Origin: Flavobacteriia bacterium
Lineage (GTDB): Bacteria > Bacteroidota > Bacteroidia > Flavobacteriales_D > Crocinitomicaceae
Assembly: GCA_947455515.1 (NCBI GenBank)
Contig: CANGOF010000014.1
Coordinates: 1-36,668 of the forward strand
Length of the DNA stretch: 36,668 bases
Reading direction: 5' to 3'
A model generated the notes under the pieces. That model saw only the letters and a program-made list of their open reading frames with translations. It was not told the origin of the DNA and searched no databases. Of this stretch, positions 2,196 to 27,847 are shown piece by piece. The stretch's first letter is position 1. Every line of letters starts with the position of its first letter. The translations under genes were made by a program, and so were the position numbers.

Positions 2196-4592
2196 ATGGG
2201 ATTATTTGGAGGTGTATCATCAAAAGAAACGCAGCTTTTAGCGAGTGTTTTAGATAAAATAGCAAATGGCGATGTAAATGTGAAATTATCAATCGATAAT
2301 TTTTCAGATGCTTCCGTTGTTAGTGCAGTGAATAACTTAGTAAAATCAACGAAAGAATCCAACGAAAAATTGGTAGACAGTGCTTCGATGATTGAAGCGA
2401 AACAACAAGAAGTAAACGCGAAAAATGAAGCGATAAATGCACTACAAGGAATTAAATCTACAGTAGATGCATCCTTTGCTTCTATTGAATTTGATGTGAA
2501 AGGAAACATTCTTTCTGCAAATGCAAATTTTGTTCACGCATTAGACTATACAAATGAATCAGAGTTAGTTGGTAAACACCATTCAATGTTTGTTACCGAA
2601 GAATACAAAAGATCAAATGAATATTCCCAATTTTGGAACGACCTTGCACAAGGAAGAACACAAGCGGGTGAATTCATGCGTATCTCGCGTGATGGAAAAG
2701 AGATTTGGATCCAAGCTGCATATACGCCTCTAAAAGACGACAAAGGAAATGTAGTTAAAGTAATTAAAATTGCTTCGGATATTACAGCGCAAAAACAAGT
2801 ATTAAAAGAAAACGAACTAAACATTGCTGCATTAAAATCGGAAATAGAAACACGTATGAAGTTAGTAGATGAACTTTGTATCGTTTCCGAAGTAGATTTA
2901 CGTGGTCACATTACCTACGTTAACGATAAGCATTGTGAGGTTTCGCAATACAAACGCGAAGAACTTATTGGGCAAAATCAAAACATCGTTCGTCACCCAG
3001 ACATGAAAAAAGAGGTGTTTAAAGAACTTTGGTCTACGATCATGCGAGGAGAAGTATTTAGAGGTCCGGTGAAAAACCGCAAAAAAGATGGTACTCCTTA
3101 CTACGTAGATGGTGTGTTTGCTCCAGTGATGGGTCCAAACGGTAAACCGGTAAAATACATTGGGGTACGTTATGAAAATACCGAACAAACATTTGCAGCA
3201 CAAGAAGCAAAAGGGGTAGTAGATGCAATTAATACTTCGTTCGCTTACATTGAATTTGATACAAAAGGAAACATCCTTACTGCAAATGACAATTTCTTAG
3301 GTGCATTAGGTTATTCATTAAATGACATCGTTGGTAGACACCATAGAATGTTTGTGGATCCAGAAGTTGTAAATTCTTCGGCATATGTTAAATTCTGGGA
3401 TGACTTAGCAATGGGTATTGCTCAAAATGACTTATTCAAACGTATTACGCGTTCAGGAAAAGAAATTTGGATTCAAGCGGTGTATTCTCCTGTTAAAGAC
3501 GAAATGGGTAGAATAGTTAAAATTGTGAAAGTTGCTACGGATGTAACTGCGGCAACAGAAGCTGCAAAAGACACTGCGGAAGCTGCAGAAGAAGCAACAC
3601 GTGTATTAGCTTCTTTAGCAGAAGGGGATTTAACTCAAAAATACGAGGTGGAAACGAAAGGTAACCTTAAAATAATGGGTGAATCTTTAAATAGAACCAT
3701 CGATACCTTAAGCGAGTTGATTTCAACAGTTGTTACCAATGCAGATAATATTGCTGCTGCGAGTGTGCAAATGTCTTCTTCAGCACAACAATTGTCAGAA
3801 GGTGCAACGGGACAAGCAAGTTCAGTAGAGGAAATTTCATCTTCTATGGAACAAATGACTGCAAACATCCAACAAAATACAAGTAACTCTCGCCAAACAG
3901 AGAAAATTTCTACGCAAGCTGCTTCGGATATATTAACAAGTAAAGAATCGGTAATCGAAACAGTGGCTTCAATGAAAACAATTGCCTCTAAAATTTCGAT
4001 CATCGGTGAAATTTCAAGACAAACAAATTTACTTGCATTAAACGCTGCTGTAGAAGCTGCTCGTGCGGGTGAACATGGACGTGGTTTCGCGGTGGTTGCT
4101 GCTGAGGTACGTAAATTGGCAGAACGTTCGCAATTAGCAGCGACAGAGATTGATGAGGTTTCAGGGAAAAGTGTTGACATCGCTCAAAAATCAGGTGAAA
4201 TGTTGAACGAGGTAGTACCTAACATTCAAAAAACTTCCGATTTAGTGCAAGAAATCACGGCTTCAAGTGTAGAACAAAGCGCTGGTGCAGATCAAATAAA
4301 TAGTGCGATTCAAATGCTAAATAATGTAGTGCAAGAAAATGCTGCTACAGCGGAGGAAATGGCTGCTGGTGCGGAAGAATTAAATGCACAAGCCGAACAA
4401 TTACAAGAAGCGGTTGCGTTCTTTAAACTAGATAGCATTTCTAACAATAGAAAATTTGAACAAAAAGCAACGATTAAAAAACCAACGATTCATACCCAAA
4501 GACCTGTTGTTAAATCAACATTAAAGACGGGATCTGTGAATATTAATCTTGGTGGACCAGACAGCTTAGACAACGATTTCCAATCCTTCTAA
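2196..4592 (+). CDS. Soluble methyl-accepting chemotaxis protein with three PAS domains
   Basis: This 798-residue receptor has no signal peptide or membrane segment, so it should sense cytoplasmic conditions. Seen in order: a helical N-terminus, PAS1 (~80-200), PAS2 (~220-335), PAS3 (~340-455), HAMP (~465-515) and a signalling domain (~525-740). The hairpin tip contains [20 protein letters not shown], the conserved CheA/CheW contact. PAS2 ([18 protein letters not shown]) resembles the PAS of the Aer redox receptor; FAD binding is an inference only. A flexible ~50-residue tail ends in DFQSF, which fits the x-[HFYW]-x2-[HFYW] consensus of C-terminal pentapeptides that tether CheR/CheB. Both enzymes are encoded next door. 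Presumed signal: redox, oxygen or a small metabolite. Confidence 0.93.
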
Positions 4593-23067: not shown

Positions 23068-23517
23068 ATGAAAAAAATATTCTCTAAATTAACAAGTATA
23101 GCGCTATTAGCAGTTTCTCTGCTTTTAATGTCGGCAGCAAATGAAACCCAATTATCTGCGGTAGTCAATGACTCAGTGTCTGAAACAGAAGTTTCTTATG
23201 CCTACCTTAAATCCATTTTCAAAGCGCAAAAAACACGTTGGAAAGATGGTTCTAAAATTACTTTAGTAATGTTAAAACCAGAATCTGCTGGTGGGGCACT
23301 GATGTGTTCTAAAGTGTTTGGTCAATCTGCAAGTGATGTAAATAAATTTTACATGGCTTTAGTATTTCAAGGACAAATCACAGCTCCGAAATTTTGTAAT
23401 TCAGATGACGAATTAAAAGCGTATGTGAAAAATACGAAAGGCGCAATTGGTTTATTGCCAGCTAAAGATGCTGCAGGAGCTAAAACAATTAAAGTAGACG
23501 GTAACGTTGCATTTTAA
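23068..23517 (+). CDS. Small PstS-like periplasmic protein
   Basis: 149 residues with a signal peptide (MKKIFSKLTSIALLAVSLLLM). The body follows the short PstS-like (PBP-like) pattern: a segment like 'l..iF.g....W.dG..i' (YLKSIFKAQKTRWKDG), then VFGQSASDVNKFYMALVFQG, and a closing gaIG.l motif (KGAIGLLP). It is about half the size of a true PstS, so it is a single-domain relative. Two Cys (LMCSK, KFCNS) could form a disulphide. Such proteins often sit beside outer-membrane porins and sensory receptors. Here it lies between a porin-like gene and a membrane receptor gene. A strong terminator follows. Confidence 0.75.
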   Translation: MKKIFSKLTSIALLAVSLLLMSAANETQLSAVVNDSVSETEVSYAYLKSIFKAQKTRWKDGSKITLVMLKPESAGGALMCSKVFGQSASDVNKFYMALVFQGQITAPKFCNSDDELKAYVKNTKGAIGLLPAKDAAGAKTIKVDGNVAF

Positions 23518-23696: not shown

Positions 23697-26249
23697 ATGG
23701 AGGTAGATAACACCGAAAAAAAAACCAAGAAATCCATTGGTTTAAAAAAGAAAAAAATAGGAAGTAAGTTAGCAATTATATTGATTATCAATTCACTTAC
23801 TATTTTTTTACTTGGGTTAGTGTCTTTTTATGGCTTACAAAAACTATTGTCTTCCAACGAACAAATTTTTGTTAATTCTAAAGTGTTAAACACACAATTA
23901 GAGTTAGAAAAAGAAAAAGATAATATCAACGGTGATATCTACGTTGGGGTATTATTAAATAAAAGTGATGAAACAGAAGTGAAACGCTACAAAGCGAATT
24001 TTTATAACCACATAAATTCCTTTAAAAAGCATTTATTTATTCTGGAAAAAAACAAAAAATCTACTTTCGTTAAAGAAATAAAAAAGAATATTCCAGATCT
24101 TCACGAGTTTAGTAAGTTGAGTGTAGACTTGGTGCAAGCTACCTTAAACCAAGACATGAGTGCTTTTGAGTTGTTACCATTGTACAAAGAAAAGTATGAA
24201 GTAATCACTGTCTCAGCGAAAAAATTATCAGAAAAATTATCCAAAGAATCTGATTTATTAGCAAAAGAAAATAAATTTACTTCCATTCAGATTTCAGGAT
24301 TTATCGTAGGATTCAGTATTATCGCATTGCTTATTGCTGTACTTATAAGCATGTATATTAATCGTTTAATTAAAGGTTCGGTTTCATTTATCCAAAAAAT
24401 GATTTCTAACCTATTAGTTGGTGAGTTAGAAGTGGAAGAAGATTCAAAACAAGTAAATCAAGAAGATTCAAACGATGAATTAGTGAAAATTGGCTATTCG
24501 TTAAATGATTACATGCATTCTTTAAAAAACACAGCAGATTATGCTCGTGAAATTGGAAAAGGGAATTTTGAACTATCCTATGCTCCTTTAAGTGAAAAAG
24601 ATGAATTAGGATTGTCGTTAATGGAAATGAAAGCAAGTTTAGAAAAAATTGCGGATGAAGATAAAAAACGTAACTGGGCAACAGAAGGACTCGCTAAGTT
24701 CGGTGAAATTTTACGTAACAATAACGATGGTCTAAGTATTCTTGGAGACAACATCATCTCAAACTTAGTAAGATACCTTGGTGCAAACCAAGGAGGTTTA
24801 TTCGTAGTGAATGATAACGATACAAACGATAAGCACCTTGAATTAATTGCTTGTTATGCTTGGAACAAAAAGAAGTACATCAACATGCGTGTCGACGAAG
24901 GGGAGGGATTAGTTGGTCAGGCATGGCAAGAAAATGACACACTATTCATCACAGATGTTCCAGAAGATTATGTGAAAATTACTTCTGGTCTTGGAGATGC
25001 AAATCCAAAATCATTTCTGATAGTTCCGTTAGCTGTGAATGATGAAATTTTTGGAGTTGTTGAAATAGCAGCTTTCTTTGAATTTGAGCAATATCACATT
25101 GATTTTGTAAACAAATTAGCAGAAAGTATCGCTTCTACTTTATCTACAGCGAAAACCAATGAACGCACAAAAATCTTGTTAGAGCAATCACAACAACAAA
25201 CAGAAGAAATGCGTGCGCAAGAAGAGGAAATGCGTCAAAACATGGAAGAGATGCAAGCGACACAAGAAGAGATGGAGCGCAAAGAAGGGGAGATGACGCG
25301 TATGGTGGAGCAAATGCAACAACAAGAAGAGGAAATGCGTCAAAACATGGAAGAAATGGAGGCTACGCAAGAGGAGATGGAAAAACAAAATGCCATTATT
25401 GCAGATAAAGCAGCAGAATCAAATGGAATTTTAGATGGTATCAATGCAACCATGGCAACGGTAGAATTTACACCACAAGGAATCGTTACTACAGCAAATG
25501 CAAACTTCTTAAATACAATGAAAACAGAGTTGCAAGAAGTGAGTGGTATGCCGCATAGTGGGTTTGTACCTGCTGAAATTCTTAATTCGGTTGAATACAA
25601 AACATTCTGGTCTGATTTAGCTGCTGGAAAAGACAAAAAAGGAATCTTTAAACGTATCAATGCTGCAGGTGAAATAGTTTGGTTAGATGCGATTTACAAT
25701 CCAATCAAAAATGCGGAGGGCAAAGTAGTGAAAGTGGTAAAATTTGCTACAGACATAACTGAAAAACGAGAAATGGAGGCGCAGTCCAAAGCACAAAATG
25801 ATATTATCAATGATATTGCGATTGTATCCAAAACAGATTTAAAAGGAAACATCACCTATGTGAATGAAGAATTCTTAAAATGGTCTAAATATACTTTAGA
25901 GGAAGTCATGGGTAAAAACCACAGAATGCTTAAATCTGGAGACCAGGAAGATAAGATTTTTGTAGATATGTGGAAAACAATTTCTTCTGGAAAAATATTC
26001 CGCGGTGAAATTAAAAACAAAGCCAAGGACGGATCATTCTATTGGGTAGATGCAATCATAGCTCCAATTTTAGATGAAAATGGAAAACCAAAAGAATACA
26101 TTGCGCAGCGTTTTGTGATTAATGATGTTATCGAACAAAAAGAGCGCGATTATGCCACTAAAAAACTATACGAAGGAGAAATTAATACCATGTATGACAA
26201 ATGGTATAATCAATTGAAGCGTATGGAAAAAAATATTAATTCTAAATAA
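23697..26249 (+). CDS. Membrane receptor: helical sensor, HAMP, GAF, coiled coil, two PAS; no output domain
   Basis: I start at the ATG at 23697 (MEVDNTEKKT), giving 850 residues; the ORF-track extension is promoter-like sequence. Membrane segments (~24-45, ~200-222) flank a helical periplasmic domain like four-helix-bundle MCP sensors. Then come a HAMP-like region with an acidic insertion, GAF (~328-480), a Met/Glu/Gln coiled coil (~495-565), PAS1 (~570-690) and PAS2 (~697-805; GKNHRMLKS, FRGEIKNKAKDGS, an Aer-like pattern). The coiled coil holds two ~35-residue repeats (EEEMRQNMEEM). No kinase, cyclase, receiver or MCP hairpin is found, so it must signal through another protein. A CZB gene follows after 8 bp. 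It is a paralogue of the products at 27870 and 31052. Confidence 0.9.
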   Translation: MEVDNTEKKTKKSIGLKKKKIGSKLAIILIINSLTIFLLGLVSFYGLQKLLSSNEQIFVNSKVLNTQLELEKEKDNINGDIYVGVLLNKSDETEVKRYKANFYNHINSFKKHLFILEKNKKSTFVKEIKKNIPDLHEFSKLSVDLVQATLNQDMSAFELLPLYKEKYEVITVSAKKLSEKLSKESDLLAKENKFTSIQISGFIVGFSIIALLIAVLISMYINRLIKGSVSFIQKMISNLLVGELEVEEDSKQVNQEDSNDELVKIGYSLNDYMHSLKNTADYAREIGKGNFELSYAPLSEKDELGLSLMEMKASLEKIADEDKKRNWATEGLAKFGEILRNNNDGLSILGDNIISNLVRYLGANQGGLFVVNDNDTNDKHLELIACYAWNKKKYINMRVDEGEGLVGQAWQENDTLFITDVPEDYVKITSGLGDANPKSFLIVPLAVNDEIFGVVEIAAFFEFEQYHIDFVNKLAESIASTLSTAKTNERTKILLEQSQQQTEEMRAQEEEMRQNMEEMQATQEEMERKEGEMTRMVEQMQQQEEEMRQNMEEMEATQEEMEKQNAIIADKAAESNGILDGINATMATVEFTPQGIVTTANANFLNTMKTELQEVSGMPHSGFVPAEILNSVEYKTFWSDLAAGKDKKGIFKRINAAGEIVWLDAIYNPIKNAEGKVVKVVKFATDITEKREMEAQSKAQNDIINDIAIVSKTDLKGNITYVNEEFLKWSKYTLEEVMGKNHRMLKSGDQEDKIFVDMWKTISSGKIFRGEIKNKAKDGSFYWVDAIIAPILDENGKPKEYIAQRFVINDVIEQKERDYATKKLYEGEINTMYDKWYNQLKRMEKNINSK

Positions 26250-26257
26250 GCACAGCC

Positions 26258-26608
26258 ATGGTACTTGATTTTTTTATAGCAAAGCAAAAACATAGAATGT
26301 GGATGATCAACATGAAAGCATATTTGCTGAATGTAGAAGATTTTAAAGCGGAAAATGTTGCTAAACATACGGATTGTGATCTTGGAAAATGGATTTATGG
26401 CTATGCAATTAACGCATTTAAAGGAAATAGTCATTTTGATGAATTAGAAAAAATTCACCAAGAATTACATAAAACAATTGTAAACATTATTCAATTAAAA
26501 GAAGCTGGAAGCCTCGAAGAAGCGAACCAATCGTTCACAAGCTTAGAAGAAATTTCCGGAAAAATATTACAACTATTAGATATTCTAGAACTAGAATCCG
26601 CAGCGTAA
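26258..26608 (+). CDS. Stand-alone CZB (chemoreceptor zinc-binding) domain protein
   Basis: 116 residues, all one CZB domain. The zinc-ligand pattern is visible: an N-terminal His (KQKHRMW), then CDLGKW about 25 residues later, then HQELH after 21 more. These fit the spacing of the CZB signature (His, CxLGxW, HxxxH). In known cases CZB is fused to the C-terminus of chemoreceptors or diguanylate cyclases and senses zinc or HOCl. Here it is a separate gene 8 bp after an output-less GAF/PAS receptor, so it may be that receptor's detachable zinc- or oxidant-sensing subunit (inference). A strong terminator follows. Confidence 0.88.
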   Translation: MVLDFFIAKQKHRMWMINMKAYLLNVEDFKAENVAKHTDCDLGKWIYGYAINAFKGNSHFDELEKIHQELHKTIVNIIQLKEAGSLEEANQSFTSLEEISGKILQLLDILELESAA

Positions 26609-26631: not shown

Positions 26632-26660
26632 AAACCGACCTCTCAAAGGTCGGTTTTTTT
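26632..26660 (+). terminator. Intrinsic terminator after the CZB gene
   Basis: The 10-bp stem AAACCGACCT / AGGTCGGTTT has the loop CTCAA and runs into a T tract. Confidence 0.92.
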
Positions 26661-26662
26661 GT

Positions 26663-26757
26663 CTCCCCATCTCCCTGCCTCCCTACCTCCCCATCTCCCT
26701 ACCTCCCCATCTCCCTACCTCCCCATCTCCCTGCCTCCCTGCCTCCCCATCCGTCCC
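26663..26757. repeat. Pyrimidine-only minisatellite (8/16-bp period)
   Basis: CTCCCCAT, CTCCCTAC and CTCCCTGC units alternate with an 8- or 16-bp period over ~95 bp. One strand is almost pure pyrimidine, so triplex or slipped structures are possible. The ORF-track protein at 26659-26946 (repeated LP/PHLP) is a by-product of this repeat and not a gene. Confidence 0.9.
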
Positions 26758-26761
26758 CCCC

Positions 26762-26836
26762 TGACCCCAGCGGGGTCACACATCGCTAGCCATGCAATGG
26801 CGACGCGTTCCGACTCCAGAGGAGTCGTACATCGCT
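26762..26836 (+). repeat. Left direct repeat of the transposase locus
   Basis: Hairpin GACCCC-AGC-GGGGTC, tail ACACATCGCT, hairpin GCCAT-GCA-ATGGC, spacer GACGCGTTCC, hairpin GACTCC-AGA-GGAGTC, tail GTACATCGCT. The right copy has the same layout with paired stem changes. A further partial tail (TCACACATTGCT) runs on into the end of the transposase gene. Confidence 0.92.
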
Positions 26837-26839
26837 GTA

Positions 26840-27316
26840 TCACACATTGCTTGACCCTATTCCCCCATCAAACAAATATTTTTCATCATATTCCACCGCA
26901 TTTTGTTCTAACATTCCTACATATTCCTCTCCAAAACTTTGCCTAGCATGATGATCTTTCTGATTCAACACATACTTTATCACCCTCTCCACATGTGAAT
27001 TACTGTAAGAAAATGCTCCAAACCCTTCTTGCCATTGAAATTTATGAGGCAGCAAATTAGTCTCGTTAATATAATTCGTCGAATACTTTTTTACCTCTCG
27101 TACCAAATCAGATAAATTACAGGTTGGTTTCATCCCAATGAAAATATGAATATGATCTTCAACACCATTTATTGCCAGTAATTTTTGTCCTTTTTGTTGA
27201 ATAATTCCAGTAATTATTTTGAAAACCTGACCTTCAAAATGAGGTAAAATACAAGCTTGTCTATACTTTACTGCGAAAACTACTTGAATGTGAATTTGAG
27301 AATACGTGTTTGCCAT
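26840..27316 (-). CDS. IS200/IS605-family Y1 transposase (RAYT-like)
   Basis: 158 residues, a full-length Y1 (HUH) transposase. The HUH motif is HIH in VEDHIHIFIG. The presumed nucleophilic Tyr is in VERVIKYVLNQ, and family segments WQEGFGAFSYS and YDEKYLF are present. Such enzymes cut and join single-stranded DNA at hairpin-marked ends; the related RAYTs are tied to short palindromic repeats. The copy looks intact. Its final codons (SSNV and TGA) are read from the antisense of the repeat tail TCACACATTGCT. It is flanked on both sides by the family it may mobilise. No TnpB/IscB partner is present. Whether this is IS200 TnpA or a RAYT needs a tree. Confidence 0.9.
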   Translation of the reverse strand: MANTYSQIHIQVVFAVKYRQACILPHFEGQVFKIITGIIQQKGQKLLAINGVEDHIHIFIGMKPTCNLSDLVREVKKYSTNYINETNLLPHKFQWQEGFGAFSYSNSHVERVIKYVLNQKDHHARQSFGEEYVGMLEQNAVEYDEKYLFDGGIGSSNV

Positions 27317-27420
27317 TTTTACTTGTTTTTTTGTTAATTCTCTATTGAATTTAAGAAATAAAAGGATCTAAATCCAAATAATTGCACTCGTTTTTTTACT
27401 AAAAAATGCTTTTTTCTCTC

Positions 27421-27616
27421 CTTCCCTTCCATCCCTTGACCCCAGCTGGATCAAACATCGCTTCCCTTTCATCCCTTGACCCCAGCTGGACCCACACATC
27501 GCTTCCCTTTCATCCCTTGACCCCAGCTGGACCCACACATCGCTTCCCTATCATCCCCTTCCACCCCTTGACCCCAGCTGGACCCACACATCGCTTCCCT
27601 TTCATCCCCCTTCCAT
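27421..27616 (+). repeat. Tandem array of degenerate GACCCC repeats
   Basis: Copies start at 27438, 27478, 27519 and 27570, with the right direct repeat at 27622 as the fifth (periods 40, 41, 51 and 52). Each has GACCCCAGCTGG, an ACATCGCTTCCC tail and a pyrimidine spacer (TTTCATCCCTT). The outer stem pairs are broken here, leaving only the CCAGCTGG core palindrome. Unlike CRISPR there are no unique spacers. Confidence 0.9.
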
Positions 27617-27620
27617 CCCT

Positions 27621-27695
27621 TGACTCCAGCGGAGTCACACATCGCTAGCCATGCAATGGCGACGCGTTCCGACCCCAGAGGGGTCGCATATTGCT
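27621..27695 (+). repeat. Right direct repeat of the transposase locus
   Basis: Same layout as 26762-26836, but hairpin 1 is GACTCC-AGC-GGAGTC and hairpin 2 is GACCCC-AGA-GGGGTC. In both stems C-G and T-A pairs are exchanged while pairing is kept. The middle GCCAT-GCA-ATGGC hairpin and spacer are unchanged. Confidence 0.92.
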
Positions 27696-27747
27696 TGCCA
27701 TGGCAAGCAATTATTTAACACCGACTCCAGAGGAGTCGTACATCGCT
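27691..27747 (+). repeat. Perfect 20-bp palindrome and a further GACTCC repeat
   Basis: TTGCTTGCCATGGCAAGCAA is a perfect palindrome overlapping the end of the right direct repeat. After 11 bp there is one more copy, GACTCC-AGA-GGAGTC with tail GTACATCGCT. A similar GCTTGCC/GGCAAGC hairpin occurs at 14860-14876. Confidence 0.88.
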
Positions 27748-27847
27748 AAATCCCTACGCTATTTTGCTTATAGTAATATTTTTTTACTAAGTGATTCGTC
27801 TATTTTTTTTAATGATTTTGCGCATTTTTTATTGATTAACAATGAAT

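Follow-up and report, generated by a model that had tools for sequence, protein, structure and literature searches.

A free-standing CZB protein encoded beside an output-less receptor in a freshwater flavobacterium: a putative split receptor

Does a small CZB protein encoded directly behind a receptor without an output domain act as the sensor of that receptor? The question is raised by a locus of a freshwater flavobacterium. The window (the whole stretch of DNA analysed, 36,668 nucleotides, a contig of a Bacteroidota MAG) is a chemotaxis-type region encoding CheA, CheW, an MCP, hybrid kinases and several receptors, together with further che-like genes read from translations. The sole MCPsignal gene found in the genome lies here (match at 3912-4328). 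The initial annotation described CZB domains as normally fused to chemoreceptors or cyclases. That part of the description needs revision: CZB-only proteins are a known group, making up 27.1% of 10,140 CZB sequences, some perhaps incomplete (PMC8262984), so being unfused is not unusual in itself. What stands is the pairing with an output-less receptor, which is conserved. A search of the literature turned up no functional work on a CZB-only protein. The features discussed below are as follows.

23068 to 23517, plus strand: small secreted protein upstream of the receptor, distantly like the phosphate-binding-protein type; a conserved receptor neighbour
23697 to 26249, plus strand: receptor of 850 amino acids without an output domain (Pfam; start of the G085 orthologue)
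26133 to 26246, plus strand: C-terminal tail of the receptor, 38 residues, EQKERDYATKKLYEGEINTMYDKWYNQLKRMEKNINSK, a putative CZB docking segment (tail search, orthologue comparison)
26258 to 26608, plus strand: stand-alone CZB protein of 116 amino acids (PF13682, ligand alignment, AlphaFold2, Foldseek)
26632 to 26656, plus strand: Rho-independent terminator-like hairpin closing the receptor-CZB unit (10-pair stem, then a T run)

Further along, positions 26655-27760 contain a gene for an IS200-like transposase (26840-27316, minus strand; Y1_Tnp, 5.9e-25). Palindromic CGACTCCAGAGGAGTCG-type repeats and arrays of CCCCAGCTGG repeats flank the gene, the arrangement seen in REP-associated transposase elements.

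The CZB gene and the adjacent receptor

The CZB gene is an intact open reading frame with an ATG start and in-frame stops on either side. Its product matches the Pfam CZB family (E, 5e-12; 46.4 bits against a curated cut-off of 29.4) and no further family above cut-off, which places it by architecture in the CZB-only subgroup of PMC8262984. It is the single CZB of the window genome. Residues H12, C40, H67 and H71 align with the 3His/1Cys site of fused CZBs, and the CDLGKW motif (CxxGxW type) is invariant in that alignment; by analogy with the CZB family, these four residues probably serve as zinc ligands. The free gene and the complete set of expected His/Cys ligands had both been proposed in the initial annotation, and both hold.

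A phmmer search against PDB sequences returned chance matches to unrelated proteins only, and structure prediction was therefore used. The AlphaFold2 model is all helical (pLDDT, 87.6; pTM, 0.80), and its top Foldseek match is the CZB of DgcZ (3T9O), with a probability of 1.00 and a TM score of 0.54 but an E value of only 0.028; the TM score against the CZB-like domain of DosC was 0.69. Beyond the orthologues, its best sequence relatives are the CZBs at the C termini of gammaproteobacterial MCPs (L006 and L007, 85 and 79 bits). Substitution rates indicate strong purifying selection on the gene, with a dN/dS of ~0.11 (0.125/1.16 and 0.168/1.58 against two relatives, synonymous sites being saturated).

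The receptor starts at an ATG at 23697, a start backed by a 98% identical orthologue fragment in G085, and comprises an N-terminal transmembrane region, a HAMP-like stretch, a GAF domain (347-482), a repeated coiled coil and two PAS domains (Pfam GAF_2, 2.5e-15; PAS_3, 1e-23). It has no Pfam match to HisKA, HATPase, MCPsignal (PF00015) or another output domain, in agreement with its first description as output-less. The receptor family is numerous: the genome of the window alone has 18 matching loci. The small secreted protein encoded upstream has a homologue in the equivalent position in L005 (3109-3555). In addition, a gene adjoining a receptor of the same type in L212 encodes a product 25% identical to it (pairwise E, 1e-5) with a weak, sub-threshold match to Pfam PBP_like_2; the window product itself has no Pfam match.

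The receptor stop (ending at 26249) and the CZB start are separated by 8 bases, exactly the spacing first reported, and the hairpin at 26632-26656 corresponds to the terminator then placed behind the CZB gene. A CZB profile scan covering all 240 genomes of the family found CZBs in three species of one genus (3/240) and none in the remaining family genomes. Receptor, CZB and terminator-like hairpin follow one another in 3/3 of these genomes, with gaps of 8, 8 and 4 bp; two of the genomes are MAGs only 74-76% complete, which was held against the split-receptor model. The CZB start MVLDFFIAKQKHRMW, the start codon and the gene order are the same in the window, L004 and L005, and a comparable hairpin lies directly 3' of the CZB in the two relatives. 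The neighbourhood, whose conservation had been suggested as a check, is thus kept wherever a CZB occurs in the family, and a CZB adjoins the same receptor type again in another family (L186, below). With a common terminator-like hairpin, the adjoining sensor and receptor genes constitute a predicted single transcription unit, the gene layout of bipartite (CetA/CetB-type) chemoreceptors. The fourth receptor-bearing genome (G085) was left unscored for pairing because its contig breaks off inside the receptor gene; the assembly has neither tail nor CZB.

Within the receptor family, the C-terminal ending EQKERD..TKKLYEGEINTMYDKWYNQLKRMEK is limited to CZB-adjacent receptors. In a tail search of the 240 family genomes, the three CZB-adjacent receptors scored 1e-13 or better, and no further receptor reached an E value of ≤0.001 (nothing below 0.04). 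Across the three orthologues, 24 of the 38 tail positions are identical, and the tail is retained despite varying PAS content (two domains in the window receptor, none in that of L005 and three or more in the L004 protein, which is partial). From this distribution we infer that the tail binds the CZB. Given the CZB-specific tail, a receptor-bound subunit is more likely than the “diffusible” one first envisaged. Because the three receptors are orthologues, the tail-CZB link in the genus amounts to a single evolutionary observation rather than three; it may go back to one event, a point taken against the split-receptor model. A candidate identity of the tail as a CZB-like (dimer) helix was rejected, as profile comparison of the tail with CZB alignments revealed no homology, a further point against the model.

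CZBs and sister receptors in other genomes

CZB matches occur in 14 genomes of a 395-genome sample of the class, and several are stand-alone. L186, from another family of the class, has a stand-alone CZB (39% identity to the window CZB) that precedes a HAMP/GAF/coiled-coil receptor by 108 bp; this receptor and the window receptor share 54% identity over 313 aa. The gene order is the reverse of that in the window and the receptor lacks the tail, which favours repeated association of the two genes over inheritance of a single ancestral operon; the missing tail and the 108-bp gap were counted against the split-receptor model. Most stand-alone CZBs in the class sample (L182-L185) have no receptor of this type beside them, which was likewise counted against it. 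The receptor type is present in 9/12 genomes with a CZB and 13/45 without (one-sided Fisher P, 0.005, with a loose receptor threshold, a small control set and relatedness uncorrected), a weak co-occurrence signal.

A wider sample of the phylum contains stand-alone CZBs in varied contexts. In L057, a CZB-only gene lies beside a gene initially considered to encode an MCP, a candidate rejected after Pfam assigned the neighbour to CHASE3 histidine kinases. In a sulfur-oxidation-looking cluster (L052 7842-9329; also L049, L054 and L058), stand-alone CZB genes occur in tandem arrays of two or three, and one flanking gene gives a weak Pyr_redox_2 match; the last CZB of the L052-type tandem has no cysteine (EKSDIGKW). 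Stand-alone CZBs also occur near a Ras/Arf-like GTPase gene (L051 6569-8633 and L053 5103-8318), in L051 also beside a roadblock gene. Two proteins of 359 and 375 aa (L187 4379-5458 and L188 4461-5588) are CZBs fused to a SpoIIE-type PP2C phosphatase, an architecture absent from the seven CZB subgroups listed in PMC8262984.

Sister receptors are accompanied by other free sensor genes. A stand-alone H-NOX gene (PF07700, 1.6e-37) lies 15 bp downstream of a HAMP/GAF/coiled-coil receptor of the same family in L109 (4100-4618), which belongs to the window's own genome, and in L132 (2756-3274); the usual histidine and a YxSxR-type motif are present, judged by eye. A stand-alone BLUF gene is located 15 bp upstream of a same-family receptor (L063 2086-2523, equivalent to L005 7210-7647; PF04940, 1.9e-28), on a contig that also carries a CZB pair. 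PhoU-like (DUF47) genes flank the receptor on both sides in L110 (1792-5096), L124, L126 and L133, the nearest being 18-21 bp upstream in L110, L124 and L126, and this set is followed by a probable phosphate permease, which suggests a phosphate-linked version. The H-NOX, BLUF and PhoU-like neighbours are from the same genus as the window and on the same strand as their receptors. In a different family (L213), a hemerythrin gene lies 36 bp downstream of the receptor (PF01814, 4.3e-17). The variety of these free sensor genes points to a common receptor chassis with interchangeable sensor subunits.

The hemerythrin pair belongs to a larger cluster (L213 1838-10857) that includes CheR-like, CheB-like, GAF, SpoIIE phosphatase and DUF6272 genes. 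Receptors are similarly clustered with genes for CheR-like, CheB-like and GAF proteins and a SiaA-like SpoIIE phosphatase in L105, L186, L213 and L214 (the genes being partly profile-checked), and SiaC follows the phosphatase in L105 and L214.

A probable split receptor and alternative explanations

The receptor and the CZB are, on balance, probably two parts of a split receptor, the CZB being its putative trans-acting zinc/redox subunit. This reading draws on the conserved gene order, the tail confined to CZB neighbours, the low dN/dS, the recurrence in L186 and the free sensors of sister receptors. Precedent is provided by stand-alone H-NOX proteins, which regulate associated signalling proteins (PMC6759604), and by CetA/CetB, in which a taxis receptor is split from its sensor (PMC2628428). 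The membrane GAF/coiled-coil/PAS protein would be the chassis and the CZB a detachable sensing subunit, made from one transcript and most likely docking on the C-terminal tail. Zinc binding and a response to HOCl or zinc availability would be expected from the CZB family: CZB sites respond to HOCl through cysteine oxidation (PMC8262984) or, alternatively, to zinc availability shifted by oxidants (2026 preprint, PMC13370339). Changed zinc occupancy could alter the CZB fold and act via the tail on the GAF and coiled-coil part. Lacking an output domain, the receptor would signal through shared downstream partners in trans, for which the CheR/CheB proteins and SiaA-type phosphatases of the sister clusters and the CheA/CheW of the window are candidates.

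The CZB could instead be a free zinc/redox-responsive protein, a zinc buffer or a partner of unrelated proteins, whose adjacency to the receptor is an accident of operon history. The occurrence of CZB-only genes in many unrelated contexts (L057; L052, L054 and L058; L051) or in isolation (L182-L185) is what such a protein would lead one to expect, but chance adjacency does not sit well with the tail-CZB correlation, with a 4- to 8-bp spacing kept together with a common terminator or with the recurrence of the association with this receptor type in another family, and we consider this explanation unlikely. Slightly less likely still is a role in the chemotaxis array: a CZB formerly part of an MCP would have split off and would now serve CheA/CheW or the sole true MCP (2196-4592) in trans. 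The closest nonorthologous relatives are indeed gammaproteobacterial MCP CZBs, and the window contains CheA, CheW and an MCP that itself lacks a CZB and is the only one found in the genome. However, the CZB gene lies in the operon of the receptor, ~22 kb from the MCP gene, the receptor carries the CZB-correlated tail, and several genus members have CheA/CheW and MCPs yet no CZB at all. Finally, the nearest relatives beyond the genus are fused domains, as they would be if the gene were a decaying, functionless fission relic of a fused CZB. The intact ligands and the start codon common to three species speak against decay, which is already disfavoured by the substitution pattern (dN/dS, ~0.11), leaving the relic explanation very improbable.

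If the split-receptor reading is correct, the CZB-receptor pair supplies a concrete partner and a candidate docking segment for a CZB-only protein. The CZB-only group is known already (PMC8262984); what is new is the pairing with an output-less receptor bearing a partner-specific tail. A broader proposal, which we advance tentatively and regard as possible rather than probable, is a general plug-in system of Bacteroidia in which output-less GAF/coiled-coil membrane receptors each take an interchangeable, adjacent stand-alone sensor and signal in trans. The sensors would be CZB for zinc/redox, H-NOX for NO/O2, BLUF for blue light, hemerythrin for O2 and PhoU-like proteins for phosphate, and signalling in some lineages might proceed via CheR/CheB and SiaABC-type PP2C modules. 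Such a pattern, if true, would be more novel than the CZB pair alone: many seemingly output-less Bacteroidia receptors would be chassis fed by small separate sensor proteins, and receptor specificity read from receptor domains alone would miss the actual ligand sensor.

Comparison with known systems

The sister clusters recall the SiaABC(D) PP2C/kinase signalling of Pseudomonas aeruginosa (PMC7647112), in that related GAF receptors share clusters with a SiaA-like SpoIIE phosphatase, SiaC and a DUF6272 gene (L105, L186, L213 and L214). They differ from the P. aeruginosa system in containing CheR/CheB and GAF/coiled-coil receptors. No SiaABC-type genes lie beside the receptor-CZB pair of the window, and the link to the CZB is a lead only.

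The CZBs of DgcZ (Escherichia coli), TlpD (Helicobacter pylori) and McpA (Salmonella) share the 3His/1Cys set and a CxLGKW motif with the window CZB, and the predicted model has the same all-helical fold as the DgcZ CZB, its best structural match. Those three are fused to a cyclase or chemoreceptor, whereas the window CZB is unfused. H-NOX/operon-partner systems likewise encode a small free sensor beside a signalling protein (PMC6759604), but the known partners (kinases, cyclic-di-GMP enzymes and MCPs) have an output of their own, and receptors of the window type have none. CetA/CetB of Campylobacter jejuni likewise consists of a sensor and a membrane receptor as two proteins encoded by a cotranscribed gene pair, and the sensor is believed to influence the receptor in trans (PMC2628428), as proposed for the window pair. 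The two systems differ in their parts: CetB is a PAS protein and CetA has an MCP signalling domain, whereas the window sensor is a CZB and its receptor is without an MCP domain.
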